64,000 bases of DNA from Sporosarcina trichiuri. GTDB lineage: Bacteria > Bacillota > Bacilli > Bacillales_A > Planococcaceae. How positions within the stretch are numbered: the stretch's first letter is position 1; each line of letters starts with the position of its first letter. Shown one piece after another: positions 44,095-60,245 of the stretch. The translations under genes were made by a program, and so were the position numbers. Below the pieces are notes generated by a model. That model ran no database searches and was not told where the DNA came from. It worked only from the letters and a program-made list of their open reading frames with translations. The stretch is taken from the NCBI RefSeq assembly GCF_030406775.1, contig NZ_CP129119.1, positions 964,001 to 1,028,000 on the forward strand. Reading direction: 5' to 3'.

Positions 44095-45207
44095 TCAGCT
44101 GTTTTCCTCGGGGGCACCCTCATCCTCACTGAATACCCGCTTCACCGCTCCGGCTACGGTCAGCTCGTCTGCAAGAACTCTCGCTTCGAGCGCAGCAACA
44201 AGTTCCTTCCTGCCCGGTGTCTCGTAGAACGAATGGATCAGCTGGTCTTCGATCATGGAATGGAACCAGCTCCGTGTCTGTTCCTGACGCCGCTGGGTCC
44301 AGTAACCTGCGGACTGCATCTGGTCCCTGAATGATTCGATCATCGCCCAGGTTTCCGCAAGTCCTGTTTTCTCGATGGAAGAAACGGCAAGCGCCTGTGT
44401 AGTCCAGCCGGGGGTGGCAGGCTGCAGGAAGTGTGCGAGCTGCCGGTAATCCCGTACGGTCTTTTTGGCCAGCCGTTCATTGCCGCCGTCGGCTTTGTGG
44501 ACAAGGACTCCATCCACCAGCTCCATGATTCCTTTTTTCATCCCCTGCAGCTCGTCTCCCGCACCGGTGAGCGCCAGCATCAGGAAGAAATCCGTCATTT
44601 CCCTGACGGCTGTTTCCGATTGCCCGACGCCCACGGTCTCCACTAAGATGACATCATAGCCGGCAGCTTCACACAGCAGCATCGTCTCCCGTGTCTTCCT
44701 GTGGACGCCGCCGAGGGTTCCAGCGGACGGTGACGGGCGGATGAATGCCTTCGGCTCGCGTGCAAGCAGCTCCATCCGTGTCTTATCACCAAGAATACTG
44801 CCACCCGAAACGGTGGAACTCGGATCGACGGCAAGAACCGCGACACGGTGACCGGCCTCCGTCAGCATCAGTCCGAACGCTTCGATGAATGTACTTTTGC
44901 CGGCTCCCGGGACTCCGGTGATGCCGACCCGCACACTGCGCCCGGTTTTCGGCAGGAGGCTCAGCAGCAGCTCCTGGCCAGCCGGCCGGTCTTTGGCAGC
45001 GGTGCTTTCTAGCAGAGTGATCCCCTTAGCGAGGCTCAGCCGGTCGCCTGAAGAAATGCCTGCAGTCAGCGCACCGATATCGAGCGGACCAGAGCTTTTC
45101 CTGAACACCTTGCGTCCCGTCCGGCGCATGCCGTCATGGGAGGAGGTGACACCCTCAGCTATATTGAGTGCCGTTTCCTTACCCCGGACATTGTCCTGGC
45201 TGCTCAC
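44095..45207 (-). CDS. meaB: MeaB (ArgK) GTPase chaperone of methylmalonyl-CoA mutase
   Basis: 370 residues from a GTG at 45207 that overlaps the mutB stop (GAGGAAGTGATGGA upstream). G-protein motifs: Walker [22 protein letters not shown], Walker [14 protein letters not shown], and the base motif VHKADGG in the NKxD position. The 45-residue N-terminal stretch before [12 protein letters not shown] is longer than usual. It gates cobalamin loading and protects the mutase from inactivation. Last gene of the mutA-mutB-meaB operon. Confidence 0.92.
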
Positions 45208-47363
45208 TCCATCACTTCCTCGTAACCGAGCTGGCGGTAGATCTCTTCAATCACCTTTTGAGCTGCAACAGGGATGACCGTCCCGGGACCGAAAATTGCG
45301 GCCGCTCCGTTCTCACGCAGGAATTCATAGTCCTGAGCGGGAATCACACCGCCGACGATGACCAATATGTCCGGTCTGCCAATCTTGGCGAGTTCACTGC
45401 GCAGTGCGGGTACGAGGGTTTTATGGCCTGCCGCAAGGGAACTGACACCGATGACATGTACATCGTTCTCGGCCGCCTGCAAGGCTGTTTCTTCAGGCGT
45501 CTGGAACAGCGGGCCGATGTCCACATCGAATCCAAGATCGGCAAATGAGGAGGCGATGACTTTCGCGCCGCGGTCATGGCCGTCCTGCCCCATTTTCGCG
45601 ACGAGTATGCGCGGACGGCGCCCCTCGTTTTCAAGGAATTCATCTGTCATCAGTTTGACTTCATCAATCTCTTCGGAATTGGAGAAGTTTTGGCTGTAGA
45701 TGCCGCTTACGGACCGGATGACCGCTTTGTGACGTCCCGAAACCGCTTCAATGGCATCGGAGATTTCTCCGATGGTCGCCCTGGCGCGAGCTGCATCGAC
45801 AGCGAGTGCCAGAAGATTGGCTGACCCATCGGCAGCCGCTGAGCTCAGGCGGTCCAGCGCCGTTTTGACGGCCTGCCCGTCCCGGTTCTCCTTGACCCTG
45901 CCGAGACGCTCGATCTGCTTCTGCCGGACGAGCGTGTTATCGATATCGAGGATGTCGATCGGTTCCTCCTCATCCAGCCGGTATTGGTTAACTCCAACGA
46001 TCGTCTCGCTTTTCGAGTCGATTTTCGCCTGTCTTTTTGCTGCGGCTTCTTCGATCTTCATCTTCGGCAGGCCGGTCTCGATCGCTTTCGCCATTCCGCC
46101 GAGGTCTTCGATCTCTTCGATAAGTGTCCATGCTCTGTCCACGAGTTCCGCCGTAAGCGATTCGACGTAATAGGACCCTCCCCACGGATCGATCGTTTTG
46201 GTCATCAGTGTCTCTTCTTGCAGGAACAACTGCGTGTTGCGTGCAATCCGGGCAGAGAAATCTGTCGGCAGGGCGATCGCTTCATCGAGCGCATTCGTGT
46301 GGAGCGACTGCGTATGCCCCATGGCCGCAGCATTCGCTTCGATCAGCGTCCGGGCGACATTGTTGAACGGATCCTGTTCCGTGAGGCTCCATCCCGAGGT
46401 CTGAGAATGTGTTCGGAGGGCAAGGGACTTCGGATTTTTCGGATCGAACGTTTTCATCATTTTCGCCCAAATGATACGGGCTGCCCGCATCTTTGCGATT
46501 TCCATGAAATAGTTCATGCCCACTGCCCAGAAGAACGACAGTCTCGGTGCGAACGAATCGATATCGATACCTGCCTGCAGCCCGGTCCGCACGTATTCCA
46601 GGCCGTCCGCGAGTGTGTAGGCCAGTTCGATATCCGCTGTGGCACCCGCCTCCTGCATATGATAGCCGGAGATGGAGATCGAATTGAATTTCGGCATATT
46701 TTTGGATGTGTACTCGAATATGTCTGCAATGATTTTCATGGACATTTCGGGAGGGAATATATAGGTGTTCCTCACCATGTATTCTTTGAGGATATCATTC
46801 TGTATTGTGCCGGCGAGCTGTTCGGGCGTTACCCCCTGTTCTTCCGCTGCAACGATATAGAAGGCCATGATCGGCAGGACGGCACCATTCATAGTCATGG
46901 AGACAGACATCTGGTCGAGCGGGATGCCGTCGAACAGGATTTTCATATCCTCGACGGAGTCGATGGCGACACCAGCTTTCCCGACATCGCCGGTCACCCG
47001 CGGGTGGTCCGAGTCGTATCCTCTGTGTGTCGCGAGGTCGAACGCCACGGACAGCCCTTTCTGGCCCATCGCAAGATTGCGGCGGTAGAACGCATTGCTT
47101 TCTTCAGCCGTCGAAAATCCTGCATATTGCCGGACCGTCCACGGACGGGATACATACATCGTCGGGTACGGGCCGCGTGTGTTCGGGGCGATCCCCGGAA
47201 AGCCGTCCAAATGCCCGGCGTCCTTCATGTCCTCAGCAGTATACATGGGACGGACGGGGATCCCTTCATTGGTCATGAATGGACTGTCTGATGCTTGCCC
47301 CCTCTGCTGTCCCCCGTTCAGCACTCCTGTAAGATTGACTTGGCTGAAATCAGGCTTTTTCAT
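45204..47363 (-). CDS. mutB: Methylmalonyl-CoA mutase large (catalytic) subunit
   Basis: 719 residues, ATG at 47363 behind AGGGAGGGATCACAG and overlapping the end of mutA by 14 bp. TIM-barrel marks: [69 protein letters not shown]. The C-terminal cobalamin domain has the lower-ligand motif in [13 protein letters not shown] (DxHxxG) and [11 protein letters not shown]. It isomerises (R)-methylmalonyl-CoA to succinyl-CoA with adenosylcobalamin. Forms a heterodimer with MutA. Confidence 0.95.
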
Positions 47364-49032
47364 CTGTGATCCCTCCCTTGCTGAGACTGATGATCTCTGT
47401 GAGTTTCATAACCTTATCCTGTCCTGCATGGATGAAACCGTTCAGCCCGGATCTGAGCCACTGCTCAGCTAGTGCCGGAGCTGCCTTACCGGCTGCATCG
47501 AGACGGATGCTGTCCGCCACTCTGGCAAGCACATCGGCGGTAACTGACTCCAATTTCGCGGGATCGGCACAAAGAATAGCATAATCGGGTGTTTCACTGT
47601 TCAGCCAGGCAGCAGCATCCGAGCCGCTGCTGCACGGCGGCGCCATTCGTGCCGTCAACCCTGCAACCGCAAGGAAGCCGGCTGCGAAATCAGTGCGGGG
47701 TTTGTAGTCTGCGAGCTTTCCGAACGGAATGAGGACGATGTCGAGTCTGCATCCTTTCGCCCTCTCCCTCAGACGCTCGAACGGATAGGCTGGCCGGTCT
47801 TCCGCGCTGATCGCAGTCAGCGACAGCTGTTCTGCACCCTCCGGATCGGCGTATACATTCGTTCCGATCAGCCGCAGCTCACCTGCAGCCGCCTTCGTTT
47901 TCCGTTCGTCCGCGAGCTCTTCAAGCCTGCCTGAGGCAAGGAACCCTTCGGTGCCCCCCGCCTCCTGCATATCGAGGAAGCGCTGCCATGCGCGCCGGAT
48001 CAGTTCGTCCGTCAGCTGTTCGATGAAATATGAACCTCCTGAAGGGTCTGCGGTCTTTCCGGCGTGCGTCTCTTCACGGAGGATGAGCTGCATGCTGCGC
48101 GCATAGCGCTGCGACTGCGGCGTGTCACCGGTCAATGCATTGTATGGTGTCACCATCAGCCAGTCGGCACCGCCGAGCACGGCGGAAAACGCACTGTTGG
48201 CCGCTCTCAGCAGGTTGACATGAGGGTCGATCTTGGAGAATGACCTCATGGAGGTGATGCCGCAGACTGGGATGGTTATATCATCATCCGCTCCATAGGC
48301 ACTGCTGAACAATGACCAGAGCGACCGGAATGCACGGAACTTGGCGATTTCCATGAAGAACTGCGTGTCTGCGGCAAATCGGAAGAACACGCTGTTCGCG
48401 AACTGTTCGAAGTCCTCTGATTTCTCGGCACGTTCTGCAGCCGCTGCCAGAGCGTATGCCAGTTCAGTCACACTGTCGGCGCCTTTCATATGGATCGGTT
48501 CGAGATCGATCCCTTCCGTCCGGACGTTCGGATATCCTGCAGGCATGCGGAAATTACCTGCGCACAGAAGCCCGGACACCGATTTCCGGTCCGTTTCCTG
48601 CACTTTCCCGAACACTTTCAGGATCTCGTCCTCTTCTTCAATGTGGAACCAGGCGATCGGCGACTCTGTCAGCAGTTCTGCAAGCTGCTCCAGCGACGTG
48701 TCGTCCCATTCGATCTTCTGCTGTCTTCCGTCCAGGCAGATCGCTTCATTGCCTTTCTCCAGCCCTTCCCTTACACCAGTGAGCCATTCCTGCCCTGTCT
48801 GGCCTCCTGCGCCCTGCGCAATCACCCAGCTGCCGTTATCCGGCCGCACCGGCAGCCGGGCAGGCCGTTCCATATACAGCGGTTTGAGGCGGATCCCTTC
48901 CATCGTCTCCGTCTCCAGCGTCTCCACCTTCCTGCCCTTCAGTGACGTTTCCGCTGCGGCTCTCCATTCTTCTGCTGTCGGCCGGCTGAACTCCTGCTGT
49001 TTCATCGTATGTATGTCGGACTTGCCCATCAT
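47350..49032 (-). CDS. mutA: Methylmalonyl-CoA mutase small subunit
   Basis: 560 residues from the first of two ATGs at 49032 (GAGGAGGGACA upstream; 49029 is equally possible). It has the mutase barrel in degenerate form ([71 protein letters not shown]), but the C-terminal domain lacks the DxHxxG cobalamin motif, as expected for the non-catalytic subunit. It heads the mutA-mutB-meaB operon after the bkd terminator. Confidence 0.92.
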
Positions 49033-49101
49033 TGTCCCTCCTCGGCTTTTCATGAGTACTGATGAATCCAGTGTACATCATGCTGCACCTGATTGAAAAG
49101 A

Positions 49102-49146: not shown

Positions 49147-50463
49147 TCAGTAAACGGATGTGTTATCCGGGGAAACAGATTCAAGGATCTCTTTGACGCG
49201 TGCCAGGAAGTTTCCGGCGACGAGTCCATCGAGCACCCGGTGGTCGAGCGACAGACACAGGTTGACAATATCACGCACTGCGATCATACCGTTTTCCATG
49301 ACGACCGGACGTTTGACGATTGATTCCACCTGCAGGATCGCTGCCTGAGGATGGTTGATGATGCCCATCGACTGGACCGAACCGAACGATCCGGTGTTGT
49401 TGACAGTGAATGTGCCGCCCTGCATTTCAGCGGACGTCAGTTTTCCGGACCGCACTTTTCCTGCAAGTTCTGAGATTTCGCGGCCGATGCCTTTGATGGT
49501 CTTCTCGTCAGCCTGTTTGATGACCGGCACGAACAGCGCATCTTCCGTCGCGACAGCGATCGAGATGTTGACGTCCTTTTTCTGGACGATCTTATCGCCG
49601 GCCCACATGGAATTCATCATCGGGAATTCTTTGAGCGCCTGGGATACCGCTTTGACGAAGAATGCGAAGTATGTCAGGTTGAAGCCTTCTTTTTTCTTGA
49701 AGTCGGCTTTCAGCGAGTCACGGTACTGCACCAGCTGAGTCACATCGACTTCGACCATCGTCCATGCATGCGGAGCTTCGTGCACGGATTTCAGCATATT
49801 GTTTGCGATCGCCCGGCGGACACCGGTTACCGGGATTTCGACATCTCCCGGAGCCGTCGGTACGTTCGCAGTGCCGCTGGCGGCCGGTGCTTTTGCAGCC
49901 TGCTGTGCAGGGGCGGATGGAGCCGGTTCTGGCTGTGACGCTGACGATTCTTCTGTTTTCGGCTGCGGTTTTTCACCGCTGTCGATGATGGCCTGGATAT
50001 CTTTGCGTGTGATCCGCCCGTCACGCCCCGAACCGTCTACGAGCGACAGATCGATATCGTGCTCCTGTGAAAGACGGAGGACGGCCGGTGAATAGCGTCC
50101 GGATGCCGCGCCTTTCTCCTTTTTCAAAGGCGTCGACGGCTTCTGTGAACCCGCAGCCGGCATTTCGCTGGCCGGTTCTTCTGCTGCCGGCACTGCTGCC
50201 GGTTCATCCGCCTGGGCACCGCCTTCGGTTTCGATCGTACAGACCACTTCACCGACAGCGACCGTCTGTCCTTCTTCGGTGATGATCTCCTTGATGATGC
50301 CGCTGAAGGAAGATGGCACTTCCGCTGTCACTTTGTCAGTGTTCACTTCCGCAAGCGAGTCATATTTCTCTACATGGTCTCCTGGTTTCACAAGCCATTT
50401 CTCGATAGTCCCCTCGGTGACACTTTCACCGAGCTGGGGCATTTTGATCGATTCGATTGCCAC
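49147..50463 (-). CDS. bkdB: Branched-chain 2-oxoacid dehydrogenase E2 (dihydrolipoyl acyltransferase)
   Basis: 438 residues from a GTG at 50463 (CGGAGGGAATTCCA upstream). One lipoyl domain at 1-78 with the lipoylated Lys44 in EVNTDKVTAEV; an Ala/Pro/Glu linker; the E1/E3-binding domain at about 122-160 (YSPAVLRLSQEHDIDLSLV, DGRITRKDI); a second Ala/Pro-rich linker; then the catalytic domain from about 210 with HRVLDG near the C-terminus. It transfers branched acyl groups to CoA and forms the core of the complex. Last gene of the bkd operon. Confidence 0.95.
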   Translation of the reverse strand: MAIESIKMPQLGESVTEGTIEKWLVKPGDHVEKYDSLAEVNTDKVTAEVPSSFSGIIKEIITEEGQTVAVGEVVCTIETEGGAQADEPAAVPAAEEPASEMPAAGSQKPSTPLKKEKGAASGRYSPAVLRLSQEHDIDLSLVDGSGRDGRITRKDIQAIIDSGEKPQPKTEESSASQPEPAPSAPAQQAAKAPAASGTANVPTAPGDVEIPVTGVRRAIANNMLKSVHEAPHAWTMVEVDVTQLVQYRDSLKADFKKKEGFNLTYFAFFVKAVSQALKEFPMMNSMWAGDKIVQKKDVNISIAVATEDALFVPVIKQADEKTIKGIGREISELAGKVRSGKLTSAEMQGGTFTVNNTGSFGSVQSMGIINHPQAAILQVESIVKRPVVMENGMIAVRDIVNLCLSLDHRVLDGLVAGNFLARVKEILESVSPDNTSVY

Positions 50464-50484: not shown

Positions 50485-51468
50485 TTAAAATTCAGCGAGA
50501 TCGCGTGCTGCTTTTTCGACTTTATCCGGATTGACCATGAAGAACTTCTCCATTGTCGGCGCATACGGCATCGCCGGGACATCCGGGCCGGCAAGCCGCT
50601 GGATCGGCGCGTCGAGATCGAACAGGCAGTTCTCGGAGATGATGGCAGCCACTTCGCTCATGATGCTGCCCTCTTTGTTGTCTTCTGTGACGAGAAGGAC
50701 TTTCCCTGTTTTCTTCGCTGCTTCGATGATCGCGTCCCTGTCGAGCGGATAGATCGTCCGCAAGTCGAGGATGTGCGCTGAAATTCCGTCTTCTGCAAGC
50801 CGTTCAGCAGCCTGCAGCGCAAAGTGGACGCAGAGTCCGTATGTGATGATTGTAATGTCTTCGCCTTCACGCTTGACGTCCGCCTTGCCGATTTCAAGAA
50901 CATATTCCTCTTCCGGCACTTCTCCTTTGATGAGGCGGTACGCCCGCTTATGCTCGAAGAACAGGACAGGATCCTCGTCGCGGATTGCCGCTTTCAGCAA
51001 TCCTTTTGCATCATATGGAGTCGACGGAATGACGATTTTAAGTCCCGGTGTGCCGGCAAACATGGATTCCACTGACTGCGAGTGATAAAGCGCGCCGTGG
51101 ACACCGCCGCCGAAAGGTGCACGGACGACAAGCGGACACGACCAATCATTATTGGACCGGTAGCGGATCTTGGCTGCTTCGGAGACAATCTGATTGACCG
51201 CAGGCATGATGAAGTCCGCAAACTGCATCTCTGCGATCGGCCGCATTCCGTACATGGCAGCACCGATCGCTACGCCGGCAATCGCCGATTCGGCCAGCGG
51301 CGTATCAAGAGCGCGGTATTCACCATATTTGTCATACAGCCCGGTCGTTGCTTTGAATACGCCGCCTTTGCGGCCGACATCTTCACCCATGACGAAAACG
51401 TTCTCGTCACGTTCCATCTCTTCTGCCATGGCGCTGGTAATTGCGTCGATATATGAAATGACCGCCAT
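50485..51468 (-). CDS. bkdAB: Branched-chain 2-oxoacid dehydrogenase E1 beta
   Basis: 327 residues, ATG at 51468 sharing a base with the previous stop (TGATG), with AGGAGGGAACGACTG upstream. Transketolase-type beta chain: VISYIDAITSAMAEEMERDENVFVMGEDVG, ADFIMPAVNQIVSEAAK, RAPFGGGVHGALYHSQS, then the C-terminal half ILDLRTIYPLDRD and VTEDNKEGS. It forms the thiamine-diphosphate E1 heterotetramer with BkdAA. Confidence 0.95.
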   Translation of the reverse strand: MAVISYIDAITSAMAEEMERDENVFVMGEDVGRKGGVFKATTGLYDKYGEYRALDTPLAESAIAGVAIGAAMYGMRPIAEMQFADFIMPAVNQIVSEAAKIRYRSNNDWSCPLVVRAPFGGGVHGALYHSQSVESMFAGTPGLKIVIPSTPYDAKGLLKAAIRDEDPVLFFEHKRAYRLIKGEVPEEEYVLEIGKADVKREGEDITIITYGLCVHFALQAAERLAEDGISAHILDLRTIYPLDRDAIIEAAKKTGKVLLVTEDNKEGSIMSEVAAIISENCLFDLDAPIQRLAGPDVPAMPYAPTMEKFFMVNPDKVEKAARDLAEF

Positions 51469-52475
51469 CAGTCGTTCCCTCCTTGTTCCGCATAGACATG
51501 ACGGAGCGCATACTCAGGCTCCGCATACGGCGCCTGTTCCGCATAGTCTGTCGCTTCGTTCACTTCTTTCATGATACGCGTCTCGATCTCATCCCGGCTT
51601 TCGTCTGTCAGGACTCCTGTCTCTTTCAGGTACGCCTCGAATTTCGGCAGCGGATCAAGTCTGCGTTCCGTCTCCAGTTCTTCAGCATCACGATACAGCC
51701 GGTGGTCGTCATCGGACGAGTGGGCTGTGAGACGGTAGCAGACAGCTTCGACAAGGCTCGGACCGTCTCCGCGCCGCGCACGGTCGGCTGCTTCCTTCAT
51801 GACTTTGTAGACCTCGAGCGGATCTGTGCCGTCCACCGTGACGCCCGGCATGCCATAGCCCGCTGCACGGTCGGATACATGCTCACAGGCGATCTGCTTC
51901 TCAAGCGGCACGGAAATCGCATACTTGTTGTTTTCGACCATGATGACTGTCGGCAGCTTATGCACGCCTGCAAAGTTCATGCCTTCATGGAAGTCCCCCT
52001 GGTTGGAAGAACCTTCGCCGAGTGTCGAGAATGTAATGAAATCTTCGCCTTTTATCTTCGCGGCAAGCGCGACCCCTACAGCATGGGGCAGCTGTGTCGT
52101 AACAGGGGAGGAGCCGGTCAGTATACGGTTTTTGTGCTGCCCGAAGTGTCCGGGCATCTGCCGGCCGCCTGAATTCGGATCTTCCGCCTTGGCGAACGCC
52201 GACAGCATAAGATCTTTCGGCGTCATGCCGAAATGGAGAACGACGCCCATATCACGATAATACGGCGCAATCCAGTCCTTGTCTTCGTCGAGCGCGAACG
52301 CTGCGCCGATCTGCGCCGCTTCCTGGCCCTGGCAGCTGATGACGAACGGGACTTTCCCTGCCCGGTTCAGCAGCCACATCCGTTCGTCGATCTTTCTCGC
52401 CATCAGCATAGTTTCATACATCTTGAGCACATCATCATTTGTGAGACCGAGCTCTTCGTGCCGGTTCGTTGCCAT
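51468..52475 (-). CDS. bkdAA: Branched-chain 2-oxoacid dehydrogenase E1 alpha
   Basis: 335 residues, ATG at 52475 with AAAGGGGGAAACACC. The thiamine-diphosphate motif GEGSSNQGDFHEGMNFA ends in VENN as usual; YYRDMGVVLHFG, GRQMPGHFG and the phosphorylation-loop-like AHSSDDDHRLYR are present. It decarboxylates the 2-oxoacids made by leucine dehydrogenase. Coupled to bkdAB by overlap. Confidence 0.95.
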   Translation of the reverse strand: MATNRHEELGLTNDDVLKMYETMLMARKIDERMWLLNRAGKVPFVISCQGQEAAQIGAAFALDEDKDWIAPYYRDMGVVLHFGMTPKDLMLSAFAKAEDPNSGGRQMPGHFGQHKNRILTGSSPVTTQLPHAVGVALAAKIKGEDFITFSTLGEGSSNQGDFHEGMNFAGVHKLPTVIMVENNKYAISVPLEKQIACEHVSDRAAGYGMPGVTVDGTDPLEVYKVMKEAADRARRGDGPSLVEAVCYRLTAHSSDDDHRLYRDAEELETERRLDPLPKFEAYLKETGVLTDESRDEIETRIMKEVNEATDYAEQAPYAEPEYALRHVYAEQGGND

Positions 52476-52494: not shown

Positions 52495-53922
52495 TTACAT
52501 GTGGATTGCTTTTCCGTCTACCGCCAATGCCGCTTCCCCGATCACTTCTGATAGGGATGGGTGCGGATGGACTGTTTCCGCGATCTCCCAAGGCGTCGCA
52601 TCCAGCACCATCGCAAGCCCCGCCTCGGAAATCATGTCCGTCACACCGGCGCCGATCATATGGACGCCGAGGACATCATCTGTCGCTTCGTCTGCGACGA
52701 TTTTGACGAATCCGTCCGCTTTGCCGTTGACTAGCGCCTTGCCGACCGCCTGGAATGGGAACTTCCCGATTTTCACTGAGTAGCCGCGGTCTTTCGCCTG
52801 CTGCTCGGTGATTCCGACGCTTGCCGCTTCGGGACTCGAGTAGATGCAGCGGGAAATCTTTTCATAATCCATCGGTGCAGGTGACTGGTTGGCAATATGT
52901 TCGACTGCCGCAATCCCTTCGTGGGAAGCGACATGGGCAAGCTGGAGACCGCCGATGCAGTCGCCGATCGCATAGATATGACTTTCTTTCGTCTGGAACG
53001 TGGGCAGTGTCTTAATATAGCCCTTCTCGATTTCGATATCCGTATTCTCGATCCCGATGCCTTCCGTATTTGCCTGACGGCCGACGGAGACCAGCATTTT
53101 CTCCGCCGTGAATGTCTGCTGATCGCCGCCTGTTTCCGCGGAGATCGTAACACTGTTTTCGGACTTCTCGATTGTATCCGGCAGCACTTTTGCCCCGGTG
53201 ACGAAACGGATGCCCTTTTTCTCGAGCAGTTTCTTCATCTCTTTCGAAATGTCCGCATCCTCCGTCGGCAGGATCCGGTCAGCGTATTCGACGACAGTCA
53301 CTTCCACACCGAAATCATTCAGCATGGATGCCCATTCGATTCCGATGACACCCCCGCCGATGATCAGCATCGACGCGGGAAGTGATTCCATGGCAAGCGC
53401 CCCATCCGATGACAGCACCTGCTGTTCATCCAGTTCAAGGCCCGGCAGCGTACGCGGGCGGGACCCGGTGGCAAGTACCAGATTTTTGAGGATGAGCATC
53501 TCATTTTCCTCTCCGTTGTTCATCTCCACCGAGATGGTTCCCGGCATCGGCGAGAAGATGGACGGTCCGAGCATCCGGCCGGTCCCTTCGTAGACATCGA
53601 TCTTGCCTTTCTTCATGAGACCCTGCACACCTTTGTACAACTGGTCGACGATCGACTGTTTCCGCTGCTGGACCGCCTGGAAATCGAGTGAGACACGTTC
53701 CGTGCGCACACCGAAATCTCCGGCTTTCTCTTTTGCCAGCTGGAACACTTCCGCACTTTTCAGAAGTGCTTTGCTCGGAATGCAGCCTCTGTGCAGGCAA
53801 GTGCCGCCGAGTTTCCCCTTTTCAACAAGCGCCGTTTTCAGACCGAGCTGGGCGGAACGGATTGCGGCGACATATCCGCCGGTCCCTCCTCCGAGTATCA
53901 CTACGTCATATTCTTGAGCCAT
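52495..53922 (-). CDS. lpdV: Dihydrolipoyl dehydrogenase (E3) of the Bkd complex
   Basis: 475 residues, ATG at 53922 with CAGGAGGCAGCACACG, overlapping buk by 17 bp. FAD motif [16 protein letters not shown], redox cysteines Cys42 and Cys47 in [12 protein letters not shown] motif [14 protein letters not shown], and the C-terminal catalytic HPHPSLSE. It reoxidises the lipoyl arms of BkdB and makes NADH. Its place in the operon makes it the dedicated E3. Confidence 0.95.
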
Positions 53923-55024
53923 CGTGTGCTGCCTCCTGTTCTATACTGGGATACGTCTTCGCTTCCTCTTCACCGGTGAGAACACGGATTGCCCCTTCTG
54001 CAAGGGCCTGCAATTCGTCTTCCCCCGGATAGACGGCGACTTCTGCGATCCACTCGATATAGTTCCTGATCTCTTCCACAAATCCTCTGCCGTATGCAAG
54101 TCCGCCCGTCAGGATGATGGCATCCGCTTTCCCGCGAAGCACCGCAGCGGCACTGCCGACTTCTTTTGCGACCTGATAGGCCATCGCATCGTAGACACGT
54201 TTCGCTTCCTCATCACCTGCTGCAATCCGTTTCTCAACCTGCACTGCATCATTCGTGCCCAAATACCCTGTCATACCGCCTTGGCCTACGAGCATCTCCA
54301 TCACTTCCTGACGGTAATACTTGCCGGAAAAACAAATATCGACAAGGTCCCCGGCCGGGACGGTCCCTGCCCGTTCCGGACTGAATGGTCCGTCCCCGTG
54401 CAGGCCGTTGTTGACATCGATCACATTGCCGTACTCATGGGCACCGACAGTGATACCGCCGCCCATATGGACGACGATCAGTTTCAGATCACTGTAATTC
54501 CTGCCTGTATCCTTGGCATAGCGCCTGGCGACCGCTTTCTGGTTCAGCGCATGGAAGATCGAATGCCGTTCCAGCAGTTTGAATCCAGACAGCCGGGCGA
54601 CCGGCTGCAGTTCGTCCACGACGACCGGGTCCACGATGAACGCGGGGATCCCTTCTGCCGAGGCGATCTCGTTCGCGAGGATGCCGCCGAGATTCGAGGC
54701 GTGCTGGCCGGAAACGCCCCGCTTCAGATCTTCCAGCATCTGTCCGTCGACACGGTACGTACCGCCGGCGATCGGGCGGAGCAGTCCGCCGCGCCCGACA
54801 ACTGCAGCAAGGGCTGCTGTGCTGATTCCATGGTCGGCGAGCGACCGGATGATCAGTTCTTTCCGGAAGCCGTACTGCGCGGTGACATTGGGAAACGGTG
54901 CAAGTTCTTCAGTCGAATGACGCAGGGTTTCTTCCATTATCAGCCGGCCGTCATCAAACACCCCGATTTTTGTTGACGTCGATCCTGGATTGATCGTCAA
55001 TATTGTCATTCCTGAAGCAGCCAT
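53906..55024 (-). CDS. buk: Butyrate/branched-chain fatty acid kinase
   Basis: 372 residues from the ATG at 55024, which is nine bases from AAAGGAG; an ATG two codons earlier is too close. ASKHA fold: [15 protein letters not shown] at the N-terminus, [28 protein letters not shown] and the ILTGGLAYG loop. It converts branched acyl-phosphates to acids with ATP gain, after Ptb. Cytoplasmic. Confidence 0.93.
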
Positions 55025-55066
55025 GGCCATTTTCTCCTTTCGCGGTACACGTGTCCGGCAGGTCTG

Positions 55067-56164
55067 TTACTTGCGCCGCGACAGAACGCTTTTTTCATTT
55101 TGCAGGAACTGATTGCGCGCTTTCGCGACACGCTCGATCCGTTCTTCGGCCAGACGGTCAGCTGCCACGTATGACGGAATGCTGTCCCGCTTGGAAATTG
55201 CAAAGATCTTTTCGATTGTCTGGTAGATCGTGTCGACTTTCTTAAGAGCACGTTCACGGTTGTAGCCATCCAGTTCGTCCGCGACGTTGATGACGCCGCC
55301 TGAGTTGATGACATAGTCCGGTGCGTAGACGATACCCATCTCATGGATTCTGTCTCCGTGTTCCGGATTTTTCAGCTGGTTGTTCGCCGATCCTGCGATC
55401 ACTTTCGCTTTCAGCTGCGGAATCGTGTCGTCGTTGATGACCGCGCCGAGTGCGCATGGCGAGAAGATGTCCGCGTCCTGGCTGTAGATCTCATCGATGT
55501 CGACTGCTGTTGCGCCGAAGTTGTCGACTGCGCGCTGGACCGCGTCCTGGTTGATGTCTGTGACGATCAGTTTCGCGCCTTCTTTGTGGAGGTATTCGCA
55601 CATTGTGTACGCGACATTTCCGACGCCTTGGACAGCAACCGTTTTATCCTTCAGGGAATCGCTGCCGAATGCTTCTTTCGCTGCTGCCTTCATGCCTTTG
55701 TAGACGCCGAGTGCAGTGATCGGCGATGGGTTGCCTGAGGAACCGAATTCAGCGGAGACACCCGTGACATAGTCCGTTTCCAGATGGATGAGGTCCATGT
55801 CCTCTTCTGTTGTGCCGACGTCCTCCGCTGTTATATAGCGCCCGTTCAGCCCTTCGATGAAACGGCCGAATGCGCGGAACATCTCATCGTTCTTGTCGGT
55901 TTTCGGATTGCCCATGATGACGGCCTTGCCGCCGCCGAGGTTCAGTCCGGCTGCAGCATTCTTGTATGTCATGCCGCGCGCAAGACGGAGTGCGTCTTCG
56001 ATCGCTTCTTCTTCGCTGTCATATGTCCACATACGTGTTCCGCCGAGTGCCGGTCCGAGTGTCGTGTCATGGATGGCGATGAATGCTTTCAAGCCTGTTG
56101 TCTTGTCCTGGCAGATCACAAGCTGTTCGTAGTCATAAGTTTCCATATATTTCATGATTTCCAT
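55067..56164 (-). CDS. bcd: Leucine dehydrogenase
   Basis: 365 residues from the ATG at 56164 (CGGAGGAAACTAAA upstream), one base after the ptb stop. Glu/Leu/Phe/Val dehydrogenase marks: [11 protein letters not shown], catalytic Lys80 in [25 protein letters not shown] motif [15 protein letters not shown], and SANNQL. It deaminates leucine, valine and isoleucine to the 2-oxoacids that feed the Bkd complex. The size equals characterised enzymes (364-366). Confidence 0.95.
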
Positions 56165-56165
56165 T

Positions 56166-57098
56166 TTAGTTTCCTCCGTTTTCGGTTTGATTTTTGCTGA
56201 CAAGCAAGGCGAGTGCCAGCGAGTTCAGTTTTGTTTCGGCACTGTCCGCCCTGGATGTCATGACAATCGGAGCGGCTGCCCCTTGGATCATGCCGCCTAC
56301 TTTCGCTTTCGCGAAATAGGTGAGCGACTTGTAGAGCATATTCGCGGATTCGAGGTTCGGTGCGACCAGGATATCCGCTTTCCCTGCGGCCGGTCCTGTC
56401 AGCCCTTTATGCAGGGCCGCTTCTGTTGAAATTGCGTTGTCGAGTGCCATCGGCCCGTCCACTATGCAATTGTCCAGCTGCCCTCGCTGATTCATCATCG
56501 TCAAGGCAGCAGCATCCAAAGTCGCCTGCATGGCAGGATTGACGGCTTCCACGGCAGCGAGCGGAACGGCGACCGGCAGCTCAAGTCCGCACGCCCGGGC
56601 GACTGTAACTGCATTCCGGATGATCTGCGCTTTCGTCTCCAGGTCCGGCAGAAGACTCATCGCCGAATCCGTAAGGTAGATCAACTTGTCATACCCGGGT
56701 ATCTCGAATGCCGCTACATGCGACAGTACATTTCCGCTGCGCAGCCCGCCTTCTTTCTTGAGAGCGGCCTTCATGAGGGAAGCCGTCGGGAGATTCCCTT
56801 TCATGAGAACCTGCGCCTCGCCGGATGAGACGGATTGCACAGCCATCGCGGCCGCATTGTCCCGTCCTGCTGCCTGGATGAACTCCACATCAGGATGGCC
56901 GATCAGTTCGGGTGTATGCTTGCGGACCATTTCATTGAGTTCCTGTCCGTCATCGAACAGCTTGAATGCAGCCAGCCCTCTGGATACGGCGTGTTCCACA
57001 GCTTCCAGAACATCCTGGTCGGCTGCACAAGCAACCGCAGTGCATGGCCTGCCCGGCAGCTCCGCTGCACGTCTGACCACTTCAGCGAGCGTTTTCAT
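56166..57098 (-). CDS. ptb: Phosphate butyryltransferase
   Basis: 310 residues, ATG at 57098 with GGGGGGATCGG. Marks of the phosphotransacylase group: [15 protein letters not shown] segment ([18 protein letters not shown]), [28 protein letters not shown] and [18 protein letters not shown]. It swaps CoA for phosphate on isobutyryl-, isovaleryl- or butyryl-CoA, working with Buk. Only 18 bp separate it from bkdR, so it is in the same transcript. Confidence 0.93.
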
Positions 57099-57116
57099 CC
57101 GATCCCCCCATTTCCA

Positions 57117-59111
57117 TCAAATCAGTTTGTACTTCTCCAGTTTGTAGTAAAGCGATCGCAGCGAGATGCCGAGCTTATCGGCAGCGGCGACTTTTTGGCC
57201 GCCGTTCTCTTTCAAAGCCGTTTCCAGCAGTAATTTTTCATGGGCTTCCATGAGGGAAGCGAGTGTCCGCTTTTCAGGAAGTGTCTGTGCTGCTGTCAGT
57301 TCACTCCCTGAGGACAGGGCGCGGATGATATCCTCTTCATCCAGAATATCAGATCCGGGTTCGGACAGGATCATTGCACGGCTCAGCACGTTCTCCAGCT
57401 CCCGGACATTCCCTGGCCATTCGTAGGACTGGAGGCGCTTCAGGGCGCTGCCGGTCAGGGAATGGACAGCCATCCCGAACTCCTGGTTCAGCATGGCAAG
57501 CAGCACTTCCGTCATTTCTGGGATATCACCGGAGCGTGCCCGCAGGCTCGGGATGCGGATGGATATCCGGGTCAGCTGGAAATAGAGTTCCTCACTCAGC
57601 GTACCGCCGTGGACCGCCCGCTCCAGGTTCGCAGATGACGAGGCGATGATCCTCATGCCAAGCTGTCTCGGCTGTCCAGCTGCCGTGACCCTGCCTGACT
57701 CGAGATATTCCAGCAGACTCTCTTGGATTTCCGGTTTCAGGTCCGTGATTTCATCCAGGAACAGGGTGCCTGACAATTCATCAGTCTGTAATTTGGAATG
57801 GATGAGAGCCAATTCGACAGAATCCATATCAAGTGAACTGCATGACACACGGATGAAATCGCTTTCATGCCGGTTGCTGCCAGTATGGATAGCATGGGCG
57901 AACAGCCCTTTGCCTGTTCCCGGCTCCCCGCGCAGCATGACAGGGATTTCACAGCCGGCAGCTATCTTTGCCTGGCTGACTGCAATTGTCAGATCTTCGT
58001 CCCCGCCGATAATGTCATCGAATGTATAAGAGGATTCAAGGTCACGGATCATCGCTTTCGCCTGATCCAGCTGTCTCATCAAGCTGCGCATTTCGGTGAT
58101 ATCGTGGATGACCCCGACGCTTCCCTTCACTTCTTCGTCGACGATGATCGGAGCGACATTGACAATGACATCACGGTTATTCTCTCCGATTTTCATCTTG
58201 ACTCCGCGCACCGGCCGCTCGGTCTCGAGCACTTTCATATGGATGCTTTCACCTGAACTTATGTCAGCTGTCGCCGGCTTGCCGATCACTTCTTTTTCCG
58301 ACAGGCCGGTAAGCCGGGTGTACGCAGGGTTGACCAGAATACCGAGGCCATTCGAGTCGACAACCGAAATAGCATCGTCACTGGAATGGATAATCGCTTC
58401 AAGCATCGTTTTCACACGCTTCAAGTCCGTGATCTCTTCAGCGGTTTCAATAACATCTGTAATCTCCTTGAACACGGCGAATGCGCCGGCAGTGGTGCCA
58501 TCTGCCAGGGTGATCGGATAACGGGAGCTTAAAATATCCAGCCCGTTCGGCAGCTGCAGCTTGACGTTCACTTCCCCGTGTCCGCTGTTCGCAACTTCCA
58601 AAAGCCGCGAAGACGGAATTACTGACGAGATCGGTTTCCCTGCCGCTTTTCCTAAAGGGATACCGAGCATTTTGGAAGCGCTGTCATTAAAGAGCTGAAT
58701 TATTCCGTTCCTGTCGATTCCGATCATTCCTTCCTCGACAGAATGGAAAATCGCCTCGTATGTAAAACTTTTTGACAGGATCGTCTGCAAATGTGTAATC
58801 TCCCTCTCGATCAGCCGGAAATATAATGTGCTGATCTCTTCAGGAAAGACAGTAATACCAGGAAACCGCTGTGCTGATTCGGCGGCATCCATTCCCGAGA
58901 AAACAAACGCGGTCTGTACGTCATCTGTTAAAACAGCCGAAGGATCGGTGTCATACGCAATGGAATGGCGTGCAGCAAAACTCCGTGCCTCAGCCGAATC
59001 TTCCCGGCTGGCAATAGCAGTGATCCGGCAGAAGTCCGATTGGATGATCTTTTGCAAAATGTTCAGCTGCTGGTCATTCGGATCTATCACAACGATGTTT
59101 TGCAAAGTCAT
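57117..59111 (-). CDS. bkdR: BkdR-like PAS-AAA-HTH regulator lacking GAFTGA
   Basis: 664 residues, ATG at 59111 with GAAGGAGATTGA. Residues 1-110 are a sensor-like region, then two PAS domains (about 115-230 and 235-355), and an AAA+ domain from about 370 with Walker A RGEPGTGKGLFAHAIH and Walker B GTLFLDEI. Between them the stretch is only about 20 residues (CSSLDMDSVELALIHSKLQ), and the GAFTGA loop that contacts sigma-54 is gone. Arg-containing SIRIPSLRARSGDIPE and a Fis-type HTH (KVAAADKLGISLRSLYYKL) remain. So it should not activate sigma-54 polymerase; it may act like TyrR, directly on sigma-A promoters. It leads the bkd operon. Confidence 0.88.
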   Translation of the reverse strand: MTLQNIVVIDPNDQQLNILQKIIQSDFCRITAIASREDSAEARSFAARHSIAYDTDPSAVLTDDVQTAFVFSGMDAAESAQRFPGITVFPEEISTLYFRLIEREITHLQTILSKSFTYEAIFHSVEEGMIGIDRNGIIQLFNDSASKMLGIPLGKAAGKPISSVIPSSRLLEVANSGHGEVNVKLQLPNGLDILSSRYPITLADGTTAGAFAVFKEITDVIETAEEITDLKRVKTMLEAIIHSSDDAISVVDSNGLGILVNPAYTRLTGLSEKEVIGKPATADISSGESIHMKVLETERPVRGVKMKIGENNRDVIVNVAPIIVDEEVKGSVGVIHDITEMRSLMRQLDQAKAMIRDLESSYTFDDIIGGDEDLTIAVSQAKIAAGCEIPVMLRGEPGTGKGLFAHAIHTGSNRHESDFIRVSCSSLDMDSVELALIHSKLQTDELSGTLFLDEITDLKPEIQESLLEYLESGRVTAAGQPRQLGMRIIASSSANLERAVHGGTLSEELYFQLTRISIRIPSLRARSGDIPEMTEVLLAMLNQEFGMAVHSLTGSALKRLQSYEWPGNVRELENVLSRAMILSEPGSDILDEEDIIRALSSGSELTAAQTLPEKRTLASLMEAHEKLLLETALKENGGQKVAAADKLGISLRSLYYKLEKYKLI

Positions 59112-59131: not shown

Positions 59132-59145
59132 TGCAATCTTTTGCA
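59132..59145. promoter_or_regulatory. Inverted repeat in the bkdR leader
   Basis: TGCAA-TCTT-TTGCA between the -10 and the bkdR ATG, a possible autoregulatory or CodY-type site. Five-base arms only. Confidence 0.35.
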
Positions 59146-59155
59146 TTTCCCATTT

Positions 59156-59184
59156 ATCATACCGCATCTTCTCGTTCTTGACAA
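59156..59184 (-). promoter_or_regulatory. Sigma-A promoter of the bkdR-ptb-bcd-buk-lpdV-bkd operon
   Basis: Minus strand TTGTCA (59179-59184), 17 bp, TATGAT (59156-59161). No GG-N10-GC sigma-54 element is seen upstream of bkdR or in the 18 bp before ptb. Confidence 0.75.
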
Positions 59185-59205
59185 TCCTTCGGCAGCAGGT
59201 AAAAT
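59178..59205 (+). promoter_or_regulatory. Sigma-A promoter of the DUF2627 gene
   Basis: Perfect TTGACA (59178-59183), 16 bp, TAAAAT (59200-59205). Its -35 overlaps the -35 of the divergent bkd promoter. Confidence 0.75.
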
Positions 59206-59228: not shown

Positions 59229-59459
59229 ATGGCACGTTTAGCCGCCTTCATAGTCCTGATCGTACCGGGCATTGCAGCAGCTCTCGGCATTAAACTGATG
59301 CGTGATGCTATCTTTGGTGTACTATTCAATCCCTTCCCATACATATGGCTGCAATTTATTGCAGGTTTGGTCCTTCTGGCTGCGGGTATCGGCTTCTTTG
59401 CTGGATTCCTGTTCCGCCGTGATCAGCGTAAAGGACGCATTCCGAAGAAAAAACAATGA
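59229..59459 (+). CDS. yqzF: DUF2627 membrane protein (YqzF)
   Basis: 76 residues, ATG at 59229 with GGAGGAGATCAT. Two membrane helices (AAFIVLIVPGIAAALGI and WLQFIAGLVLLAAGIGFFAGFLF) around a conserved loop LMRDAIFGVLFNPFPY, then a basic tail. This is the YqzF family, found beside glycerophosphodiesterase and bkd genes in Bacillus too. Function unknown. Confidence 0.88.
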   Translation: MARLAAFIVLIVPGIAAALGIKLMRDAIFGVLFNPFPYIWLQFIAGLVLLAAGIGFFAGFLFRRDQRKGRIPKKKQ

Positions 59460-59503: not shown

Positions 59504-59528
59504 CAGTTTGACGGCCGGCCGCTTGCAA

Positions 59529-60245
59529 TCATTTGCAAAAGCGGCCGGGATAGTCGGTGATCCAGCCATGGATGTACGCCGGCGGATCCTCTATGAAGGG
59601 TTCCGTCCCGTCCACACCGTATATCCTGATCGGCCGATCTGCCGCCTGCCATTGCTCGGCATAGGTATCGGTCAGCATCCGTTTATGGAAGTGGAATGCA
59701 TCCGCGGCAGGATAATCTGCCAGCGACTTTTCCTTCAGCACAGCCTTTTTCAGCAGAAATGCAGTTTCCATCGACGGCTCCAGTTCCTTCGCTTTCACGA
59801 TCAGTGAATAATCGAAAGAAGACAGATGGACATCATCCAGCACTGCCAGCTGATTCAGCAGAGCCTGCAGGCAGTCCGGATTTTCCGAAATCGTCTCTTT
59901 CATTTCAACATTGAGTCCGATCGGCTCCATGAGGGCGAAGGTGATGACTTTCGACAGCCTCGGTATATGAAAGCCCCTGAATTTACGGGTGAACCGTCTG
60001 CCTATCTGCACTTGGTCGATATCGGCCGCTTCCATATCGGAAATCCGGCATCGGATGCCTGCCAGCCTGACAAGATCCGGATCATGGATGACAAAGAACA
60101 CACCGTCCTTCGACAGCTGGACGTCCAGCTCGATTCCGTCTGCGCCTTCCTCCGCCGCCCCGCGGAATGCCTCCATCGTATTTTCAAAGTACGCGCCGGA
60201 CGCCCCCCGGTGCGCATAGACTCTCGGCCTGTTTCCGAGCTCCAT
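59529..60245 (-). CDS. Glycerophosphodiester phosphodiesterase
   Basis: 238 residues from the ATG at 60245, behind AAAGGGGCTGAGTCC; an ATG six codons upstream has no site. The GDPD TIM-barrel signature is at the start: YAHRGASGAYFENTMEAF, then GADGIELDVQLSKDG and VIHDPDL, giving the two His and the Glu/Asp ligands; NVEMKE follows. No signal peptide, so cytoplasmic. It splits glycerophosphodiesters to glycerol-3-phosphate and alcohol. It sits 27 bp behind the FapA gene. Confidence 0.9.
   Translation of the reverse strand: MELGNRPRVYAHRGASGAYFENTMEAFRGAAEEGADGIELDVQLSKDGVFFVIHDPDLVRLAGIRCRISDMEAADIDQVQIGRRFTRKFRGFHIPRLSKVITFALMEPIGLNVEMKETISENPDCLQALLNQLAVLDDVHLSSFDYSLIVKAKELEPSMETAFLLKKAVLKEKSLADYPAADAFHFHKRMLTDTYAEQWQAADRPIRIYGVDGTEPFIEDPPAYIHGWITDYPGRFCK

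Follow-up and report, generated by a model that had tools for sequence, protein, structure and literature searches.

The bkdR gene of Sporosarcina trichiuri, which lies in the 64,000-nucleotide stretch of DNA analyzed here (the window), encodes a BkdR-like enhancer-binding protein without the GAFTGA loop. We think it probable that this protein is a former sigma-54 activator turned autogenous, nucleotide-binding repressor of the sigma-A-dependent bkdR-ptb-bcd-buk-lpdV-bkdAA-AB-B operon, and that it acts through a palindromic box, TGCAA-N4-TTGCA, located just downstream from the -10 element of its own promoter. Individual loop-less enhancer-binding proteins have been described, and we found no worked example of a joint exit of protein and promoter from sigma-54. 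Here one regulator of one operon has relatives in intact, intermediate and completed states, which makes the order of the steps, and the proposed role of autorepression as a bridge between them, directly testable.

Results

The BkdR protein of the window

The bkdR gene (57117..59111, minus strand; 664 aa) was defined by its open reading frame, profile matches and alignment. It belongs to the BkdR group by its location directly upstream of the ptb/bcd/buk/bkd operon and by the presence of two PAS domains, an AAA+ domain and a Fis-type HTH. The protein consists of an N-terminal domain, PAS1 (residues ~115-215), PAS2 (~230-342), the AAA+ domain (~364-523), the lid (524-604), and the HTH (622-661); the stretches corresponding to both PAS domains, which had been proposed in the initial annotation, were found by profile search. 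The TTG codon at 59105 is more likely to be the start codon than the ATG at 59111, because the TTGCAAA context is, as judged by eye, common to many orthologs.

The Pfam Sigma54_activat profile matched BkdR in the genome scan in two stretches (profile positions 1-67 and 94-167), with the middle part missing, and the alignment with orthologs that keep GAFTGA showed a 14-column gap spanning the motif. The deletion junction is located between K440 and L441 (57789..57794, minus strand), and Walker A (GEPGTGKG) and Walker B (LFLDEI) are both present. This agrees with the first description of the protein, in which GAFTGA was missing, about 14 residues were lacking before Walker B, and the Walker motifs were kept. 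The same gap is found in BkdR of S. koreensis S-K12, which differs from the window protein by two residues (I217V and S439F), and in the relatives L011-L016 and L054, so that a local sequencing error, which had been considered as a possible source of the missing motif, is unlikely.

The alignment also showed that both arginine fingers, the sensor-I Asn and the Glu-switch Asn are replaced. In the arginine-finger segment (57576..57596, minus strand) the two arginines are substituted by S506 and Q512, at positions which we take to correspond to R162 and R168 of PspF, and the sensor-I and Glu-switch asparagines are both replaced by serine. The roles of these residues in BkdR are assumed by reference to PspF and NtrC. 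In the protein tree, window BkdR grouped with relatives having both GAFTGA and a -24/-12 promoter; the B. subtilis protein was not placed by name in this tree. The score against the NCBIfam TyrR model (159.1 bits versus a cut-off of 576) places BkdR outside the TyrR orthologous family. GAFTGA, the full set of catalytic residues, a detectable genomic sigma-54 and a -24/-12 target, which together would mark a functional sigma-54 activator, are all missing, and the protein is best classed as a loop-less enhancer-binding protein, in which GAFTGA is lost and the AAA+ domain is otherwise recognizable. Pfam still matches such proteins as 'Sigma-54 interaction domain', and they should not be counted as sigma-54 activators.

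The operon and its promoter

On the minus strand, bkdR is followed by ptb (phosphate butyryltransferase, 56166..57098), bcd (leucine-dehydrogenase-like, Glu/Leu/Phe/Val dehydrogenase family, 55067..56203) and buk (butyrate kinase, 53906..55030), which were recognized by profile matches, and further by open reading frames named from their translations as lpdV-like dihydrolipoyl dehydrogenase (52495..53922), bkdAA-like E1 alpha (51468..52475), bkdAB-like E1 beta (50485..51468), and bkdB-like E2 acyltransferase (49147..50463). Two open reading frames on the same strand after bkdB (45204-49053), named by reading as methylmalonyl-CoA-mutase-like, possibly extend the valine/isoleucine pathway of the operon.

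The gap between bkdR and ptb (57099..57116, minus strand) is 18 bp long and contains no -24/-12 element, no box, and no strong hairpin as examined by folding. The nearest GG-N10-GC candidates scored 6/12 inside bkdR and 8/12 inside ptb, the latter being the best in the 300 nt after bkdR. Both the stop-to-start distance and the motif scoring are thus in agreement with the original description of a gap of this length without GG-N10-GC. In nearly all Sporosarcina rows with an unbroken bkdR the next gene follows within 6-38 nt; one exception is locus L020, where ptb is not the next gene. A -24/-12 candidate of 10/12 in L017 was set aside as lying inside ptb. In two Viridibacillus loci a terminator-like hairpin (-20.6 and -17.0 kcal/mol, z -7.0 and -6.0) is located between bkdR and the -24/-12 promoter. 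These hairpins were found by folding; the automatic terminator scan, whose hits were L100, L101 and, doubtfully, L021, had missed them. With so short a gap and no strong hairpin in the window, the bkdR promoter probably reads through into the catabolic genes. The locus of Paenisporosarcina TG20 (L035), which has an intact loop and promoter and no strong hairpin (z -0.6), counts against the proposed explanation.

The promoter TTGTCA-17-TATGAT reported before bkdR was located on the minus strand, with the -35 element TTGTCA at 59179..59184 and, after a 17-nt spacer, the -10 element TATGAT at 59156..59161. A candidate divergent promoter, TTGACA-16-TAAAAT (59178-59205, with TAAAAT at 59200), is directed toward the DUF2627 gene. 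Its TTGACA overlaps the TTGTCA of bkdR, and one -35 stretch possibly serves both directions; the ATTTTA stretch at this site looks conserved in Sporosarcina by eye.

Loss of the loop and of the -24/-12 promoter among relatives

The family set contained 124 BkdR orthologs, of which 102 were distinct after merging identical proteins. Rows L030, L055, L056 and L061 (cut, masked or broken) and L161 and L163 (shorter than 600 aa) were dropped before the counts. L061, from Sporosarcina thermotolerans, is a broken bkdR copy with a short open reading frame, and L161, from genus g4, is a broken copy with internal stops. In L016 and L029 (556 and 585 aa) the open reading frame begins immediately downstream of the box; these proteins lack about 100 N-terminal residues and are kept from PAS1 onward. 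The rpoN status of each genome was entered by hand, and weak matches were counted as absent.

GAFTGA (or GSFTGA) was intact in 12 of the 102 family orthologs. Nine of these belong to genomes with rpoN, and all nine have a -24/-12 promoter after bkdR, eight of them within 300 nt at 11-12/12 and L100 at +317 with 12/12. The other three are in genomes without an rpoN match: L035, from the draft genome of Paenisporosarcina TG20, kept the promoter at 11/12, and in L104 (genome 81 % complete) and L106 the corresponding position holds an eroded -24/-12. In relatives with GAFVGA, DAFAGA or DAFVGA a site reduced to 7-8/12 is found at an unchanged offset. Intermediate states were found in Paenisporosarcina, where loop and promoter vary between close relatives. 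In Planococcus and Indiicoccus other motifs (GAIPGV, GALPGV, GAFDHI and others) stand in place of GAFTGA, the -24/-12 is absent, and the boxes after bkdR are kept, while the loop, the -24/-12 and the boxes after bkdR were all absent from the examined rows of Psychrobacillus, genera g2 and g3, and Sporosarcina. The change is thus not confined to the window: the loop is missing from all the BkdRs of Sporosarcina, Psychrobacillus and Planococcus that were examined, often in genomes with rpoN. Unordered parsimony on the family tree gave three changes for the loop, three for the promoter, one for the boxes after bkdR and 16 for rpoN, and four losses of the loop when its regain was barred. The 90 loop-less family orthologs comprise 40 whose genomes gave a strong rpoN match, 42 whose genomes did not, and eight whose genomes were not searched. 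The idea that loop loss follows rpoN loss as a general rule was therefore rejected; loss of sigL is not needed for loss of the loop.

The class-wide set combined 44 of the 102 family rows with 65 of the 193 BkdR matches outside the family (218 matches less 25 own-family). Of the 65 non-family rows, 28 had been chosen mainly because they scored low, 20 came from mid-list, mostly as single representatives of their groups, and 17 belonged to the top-scoring loci, and hence this chosen, not random, sample gives no rate of loss. GAF[TS]GA (or GSFTGA) was present in 62 of the 65, and 59 of these 62 have a -24/-12 of at least 10/12; L196, where the contig ends, and L219 and L220, at 9/12, fell short of the threshold. 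The three rows without the motif (L207, L221 and L239) have no -24/-12, and all are in rpoN-containing genomes. Altogether, 108 BkdR relatives were scored, L100 by hand from its gap sequence, and one more had no data. Both motif and promoter were found in 69, neither in 35, the motif only in four (L104, L106, L219 and L220), and the promoter only in none. Thus, the -24/-12 was absent in 35 of 35 loop-less rows and present in 69 of the 73 scored GAFTGA rows, and the suggestion that protein and promoter have changed together was borne out, with such changes occurring more than once. The joint tree gave at least six unordered changes for each trait, while the losses-only count, with a rooting that we chose, was seven for the loop and ten for the promoter. 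Among independent pairs, five on average supported co-loss, none opposed it and one was undecided (median p = 0.0625, short of 0.05).

The TGCAA-N4-TTGCA box

The palindrome TGCAA-N4-TTGCA, with at most one mismatch, was found within 300 nt after bkdR in 57 of the 64 non-family loci with data, and it was exact in 36; first-order shuffles of the same stretches gave on average 3.4 such loci (maximum 9; exact 0.2). Since this is where the sites of an enhancer-binding protein are expected, the box is, by its position, most likely the BkdR site. The box (at most one mismatch) was also present before bkdR in 99 of the 102 family orthologs, 84 of them exact (shuffles: mean 2.2, maximum 6), including 11 of the 12 with GAFTGA. 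In the 73 rows having a -10 of at least 4/6, the distance from the -10 to the start of this box is 10-12 nt in 67, and the spacer is 17 nt long in 72. Two observations count against the proposed explanation: 26 of the 99 boxed rows (25 Planococcus-type and L036) have no -10 of at least 4/6, and in genus g17 the copy before bkdR is degenerate (one mismatch); in L099 it lies next to the start codon, and L107 has none. After bkdR, Paenisporosarcina and Planococcus-type rows carry two boxes in tandem, and Viridibacillus has one or two copies. In Sporosarcina only the box before bkdR is common.

In the window the latter box is O1, TGCAAAAGATTGCA (59132..59145, minus strand), a putative site 10 nt downstream of the -10, and its 14-mer is identical in 26 of the 29 Sporosarcina rows. 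With a transcription start about 7 nt downstream of the -10, the box would extend roughly from +4 to +18. The location of O1 just 3' of the -10 suggests a repressor-like position; a box at about +4 to +18 could also have a non-repressing action. O2 (59350..59363, minus strand) is located 218 bp upstream of O1, inside the DUF2627 coding sequence, and O3 (59524..59537, minus strand) overlaps the stop of a phosphodiesterase gene. The S. trichiuri genome contains four exact boxes, three of which are at the bkdR locus within 406 bp, compared to one match of a reversed control pattern. The fourth box (C1:876462) lies about 120 nt before a binding-protein-like open reading frame. The spacing of O2 to O1 (218-219 bp) is the same in L010-L015 and L054, and O2 is absent in L016; as O2 is inside the codon run LQFIAG, it may be a coding coincidence. 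Among the loci scanned, O3 was found in the window and L010 only, and a looping role for O2 and O3 is therefore only suggested. Boxes located 1.7-2.6 kb upstream in several Sporosarcina were set aside; the one in L018, the only one checked individually, is coding (HANNC, in a FapA-like protein).

The initial annotation had proposed a TyrR-like mode on sigma-A promoters, and ATP-bound, loop-less BkdR could indeed activate a sigma-A promoter in the manner of TyrR or Rhodobacter NtrC, perhaps from O2 and O3 by looping. The presence of three boxes at the window locus would fit this, and the loop-less NtrC proteins of R. capsulatus and Caulobacter activate sigma-70 promoters (PMC10274813). In Planococcus, a CTTATA...TCTGTTTTAATTA element that has become conserved at the place of the old -12 is preceded by the tandem boxes. 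However, in most Sporosarcina rows there is no second box within 1.2 kb upstream of bkdR, and the distribution of O2 and O3 described above also speaks against it. Moreover, the one widely conserved box is in a repressor-like position, and the change in the protein exceeds the loop, as it includes the arginine fingers, sensor I and the Glu switch. Hence, activation is an unlikely mode for the window protein. For Planococcus, which kept the tandem boxes after bkdR, the idea of a TyrR-like activator is still viable, and the conserved CTTATA...TCTGTTTTAATTA at the former -12 position is perhaps a sigma-A promoter evolved in place. A cre-like AAAACGCTTTCA is kept together with the tandem boxes in the bkdR-ptb gap of these loci (L037-L047 and similar).

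It is less probable still that O1 only tunes the level of BkdR, with the catabolic genes mainly under other regulators or substrate flux. The box at the bkdR promoter is also found in Viridibacillus and Paenisporosarcina, whose catabolic genes own a separate -24/-12, and so its original role was probably autoregulation. In the window, however, the 18-bp gap without a hairpin means that the catabolic genes probably share this promoter, and the conservation of PAS2, which exceeds that of every other domain, suggests a continuing importance of the signal.

ATPase residues and selection

The Walker A Lys, the Walker B Asp-Glu and the sensor-II Arg were kept in 102 of 102 family orthologs, while 68 and 51 rows retained the two arginine fingers, 51 the sensor-I Asn and 91 the Glu-switch Asn. 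The 12 GAFTGA rows have lost none of these residues. The invariant Walker residues together with the lost fingers fit a protein that needs ATP binding but not its hydrolysis. Among six pairs tried in the loop-less clade, the five unsaturated ones, two of which have dS above 1.2, gave dN/dS of 0.066-0.113. The values for PAS2 in the same pairs were 0.017-0.043, and PAS2 is the most conserved BkdR domain (93 % in this clade). The low dN/dS, including that of PAS2, indicates purifying selection and argues for a working, ligand-sensing BkdR. The loss of catalytic residues in many rows, the broken copies L061 and L161, and the absence of the N-terminal part from L016 and L029 could be explained by decay of BkdR into a relic without regulatory function after its link to sigma-54 was lost. 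Such decay is very improbable, however, given dN/dS near 0.1 in the loop-less clade, the strong conservation of PAS2 and the HTH, and the nearly invariant O1.

Sigma-54 in the genome

There was no match to Sigma54_DBD or Sigma54_CBD in the one-contig 3.06-Mb genome (96 % estimated completeness). In each of these two profile searches 4 of 14 control genomes were positive, B. subtilis among them. The genome search for sigL, which had been proposed as a check, thus gave no sigma-54 domain match with working controls, and the bkd operon must consequently be read by another holoenzyme. The PF00158 profile gave nine matches in the same genome, two of which are BkdR of the window and one a 439-aa RocR-like protein. 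The other six are in Clp-like, MoxR-like and ComM-like open reading frames, named by reading; the ninth match, 0.7 kb from the fourth and with the same frame length, presumably belongs to one open reading frame with it. That a missed or very diverged sigma-54 is contacted by BkdR via another route is hardly credible, because, even though its absence rests on profile searches of an assembly of 96 % estimated completeness, two domains were searched with working controls, the target has no -24/-12, and the other enhancer-binding-like protein of the genome also has no loop.

Discussion

The explanation that we prefer, in which window BkdR has become a repressor of its own operon, would start from an ancestral BkdR that used one type of DNA box for two jobs. 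The TGCAA-N4-TTGCA boxes after bkdR would have served the activation of the -24/-12 promoter, while the single box just after the -10 of bkdR would have damped the sigma-A promoter of BkdR itself. In the window lineage the first job would have disappeared together with the loop, the -24/-12, the boxes after bkdR and the gap itself, and the autorepression would have captured the whole operon via read-through. The ligand of PAS2 is probably a branched-chain keto acid or acyl compound. From the residues kept and lost we infer a lack of ATPase activity; whether O1 is held or released would probably depend on an oligomeric state determined by bound ATP that is not effectively hydrolyzed.

In B. thuringiensis, both BkdR and sigma-54 are required at the promoter that precedes the phosphate butyryltransferase gene (PMC4428206). 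The window protein is like BkdR of B. subtilis and B. thuringiensis in its operon and domain order (two PAS domains and AAA+), but in contrast to them it has no GAFTGA, no -24/-12, no boxes after bkdR and no detectable sigma-54, and its arginine fingers and sensor I are replaced. The HTH part of the domain order presumably matches as well.

Other enhancer-binding proteins with a deleted or substituted GAFTGA include TyrR and DhaR of E. coli and HupR of R. capsulatus, which are sigma-70 dependent, and VpsR of V. cholerae and YplP of B. subtilis, which were judged probably not sigma-54 dependent (PMC3162934). BkdR differs from these proteins in its operon, and from TyrR also in its family; co-decay of the cognate promoter is not described for them in the parts of that article on which we draw. 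The preference for Pro at the Thr position of GAFTGA (PMC3162934) matches many Planococcus rows. NtrC of Caulobacter and R. capsulatus carries the L1 deletion, as does window BkdR, but those proteins are two-component response regulators. R. capsulatus NtrC needs the binding of ATP, not its hydrolysis, at sigma-70 promoters, and Caulobacter NtrC activates the glnBA sigma-70 promoter and is both activator and repressor (PMC10274813). A role of ATP hydrolysis was predicted for Caulobacter NtrC by its authors (PMC10274813), while window BkdR has lost its arginine fingers. Among the literature matches listed, no title concerned a loop-less BkdR. Loop-less enhancer-binding proteins working with sigma-70 were already known; what sets the present case apart are the intermediate states and an operator connecting the former mode with the proposed new one.

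More tentatively, sigma-54 activators that repress themselves via a single box at their sigma-A promoter may in general carry a built-in exit: deletion of the downstream -24/-12 region would let the operator capture the operon, and a nucleotide-gated pseudo-ATPase repressor, with Walker A/B invariant and the arginine fingers lost, would subsequently evolve from the AAA+ ring. The BkdR loop would have been lost about 6-7 times in Bacilli, with the stages surviving in different lineages. These stages would apparently be represented by Paenisporosarcina, with the -24/-12 and loop eroding; Planococcus, with loop and -24/-12 gone and boxes and fingers kept; Psychrobacillus, with the boxes and one finger gone; and Sporosarcina, in which the gap has collapsed and neither finger remains. 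RocR, a member of the same family, may have left sigma-54 earlier along a similar route.

The RocR-like protein of the S. trichiuri genome (L164:3412-4731, corresponding to C1:359911-361230) is a second loop-less enhancer-binding protein. Its gene is divergent from rocA- and rocD-like genes, GAFTGA is absent, and FCERI stands at the place of Walker B. RocR-like matches were found in 146 of the 151 family genomes. All 30 RocR-like loci examined are without GAFTGA, even in Viridibacillus, whose BkdR is intact, and the sequence at the Walker B place is FCER in 28 of them, FFER in one and FCAR in one.
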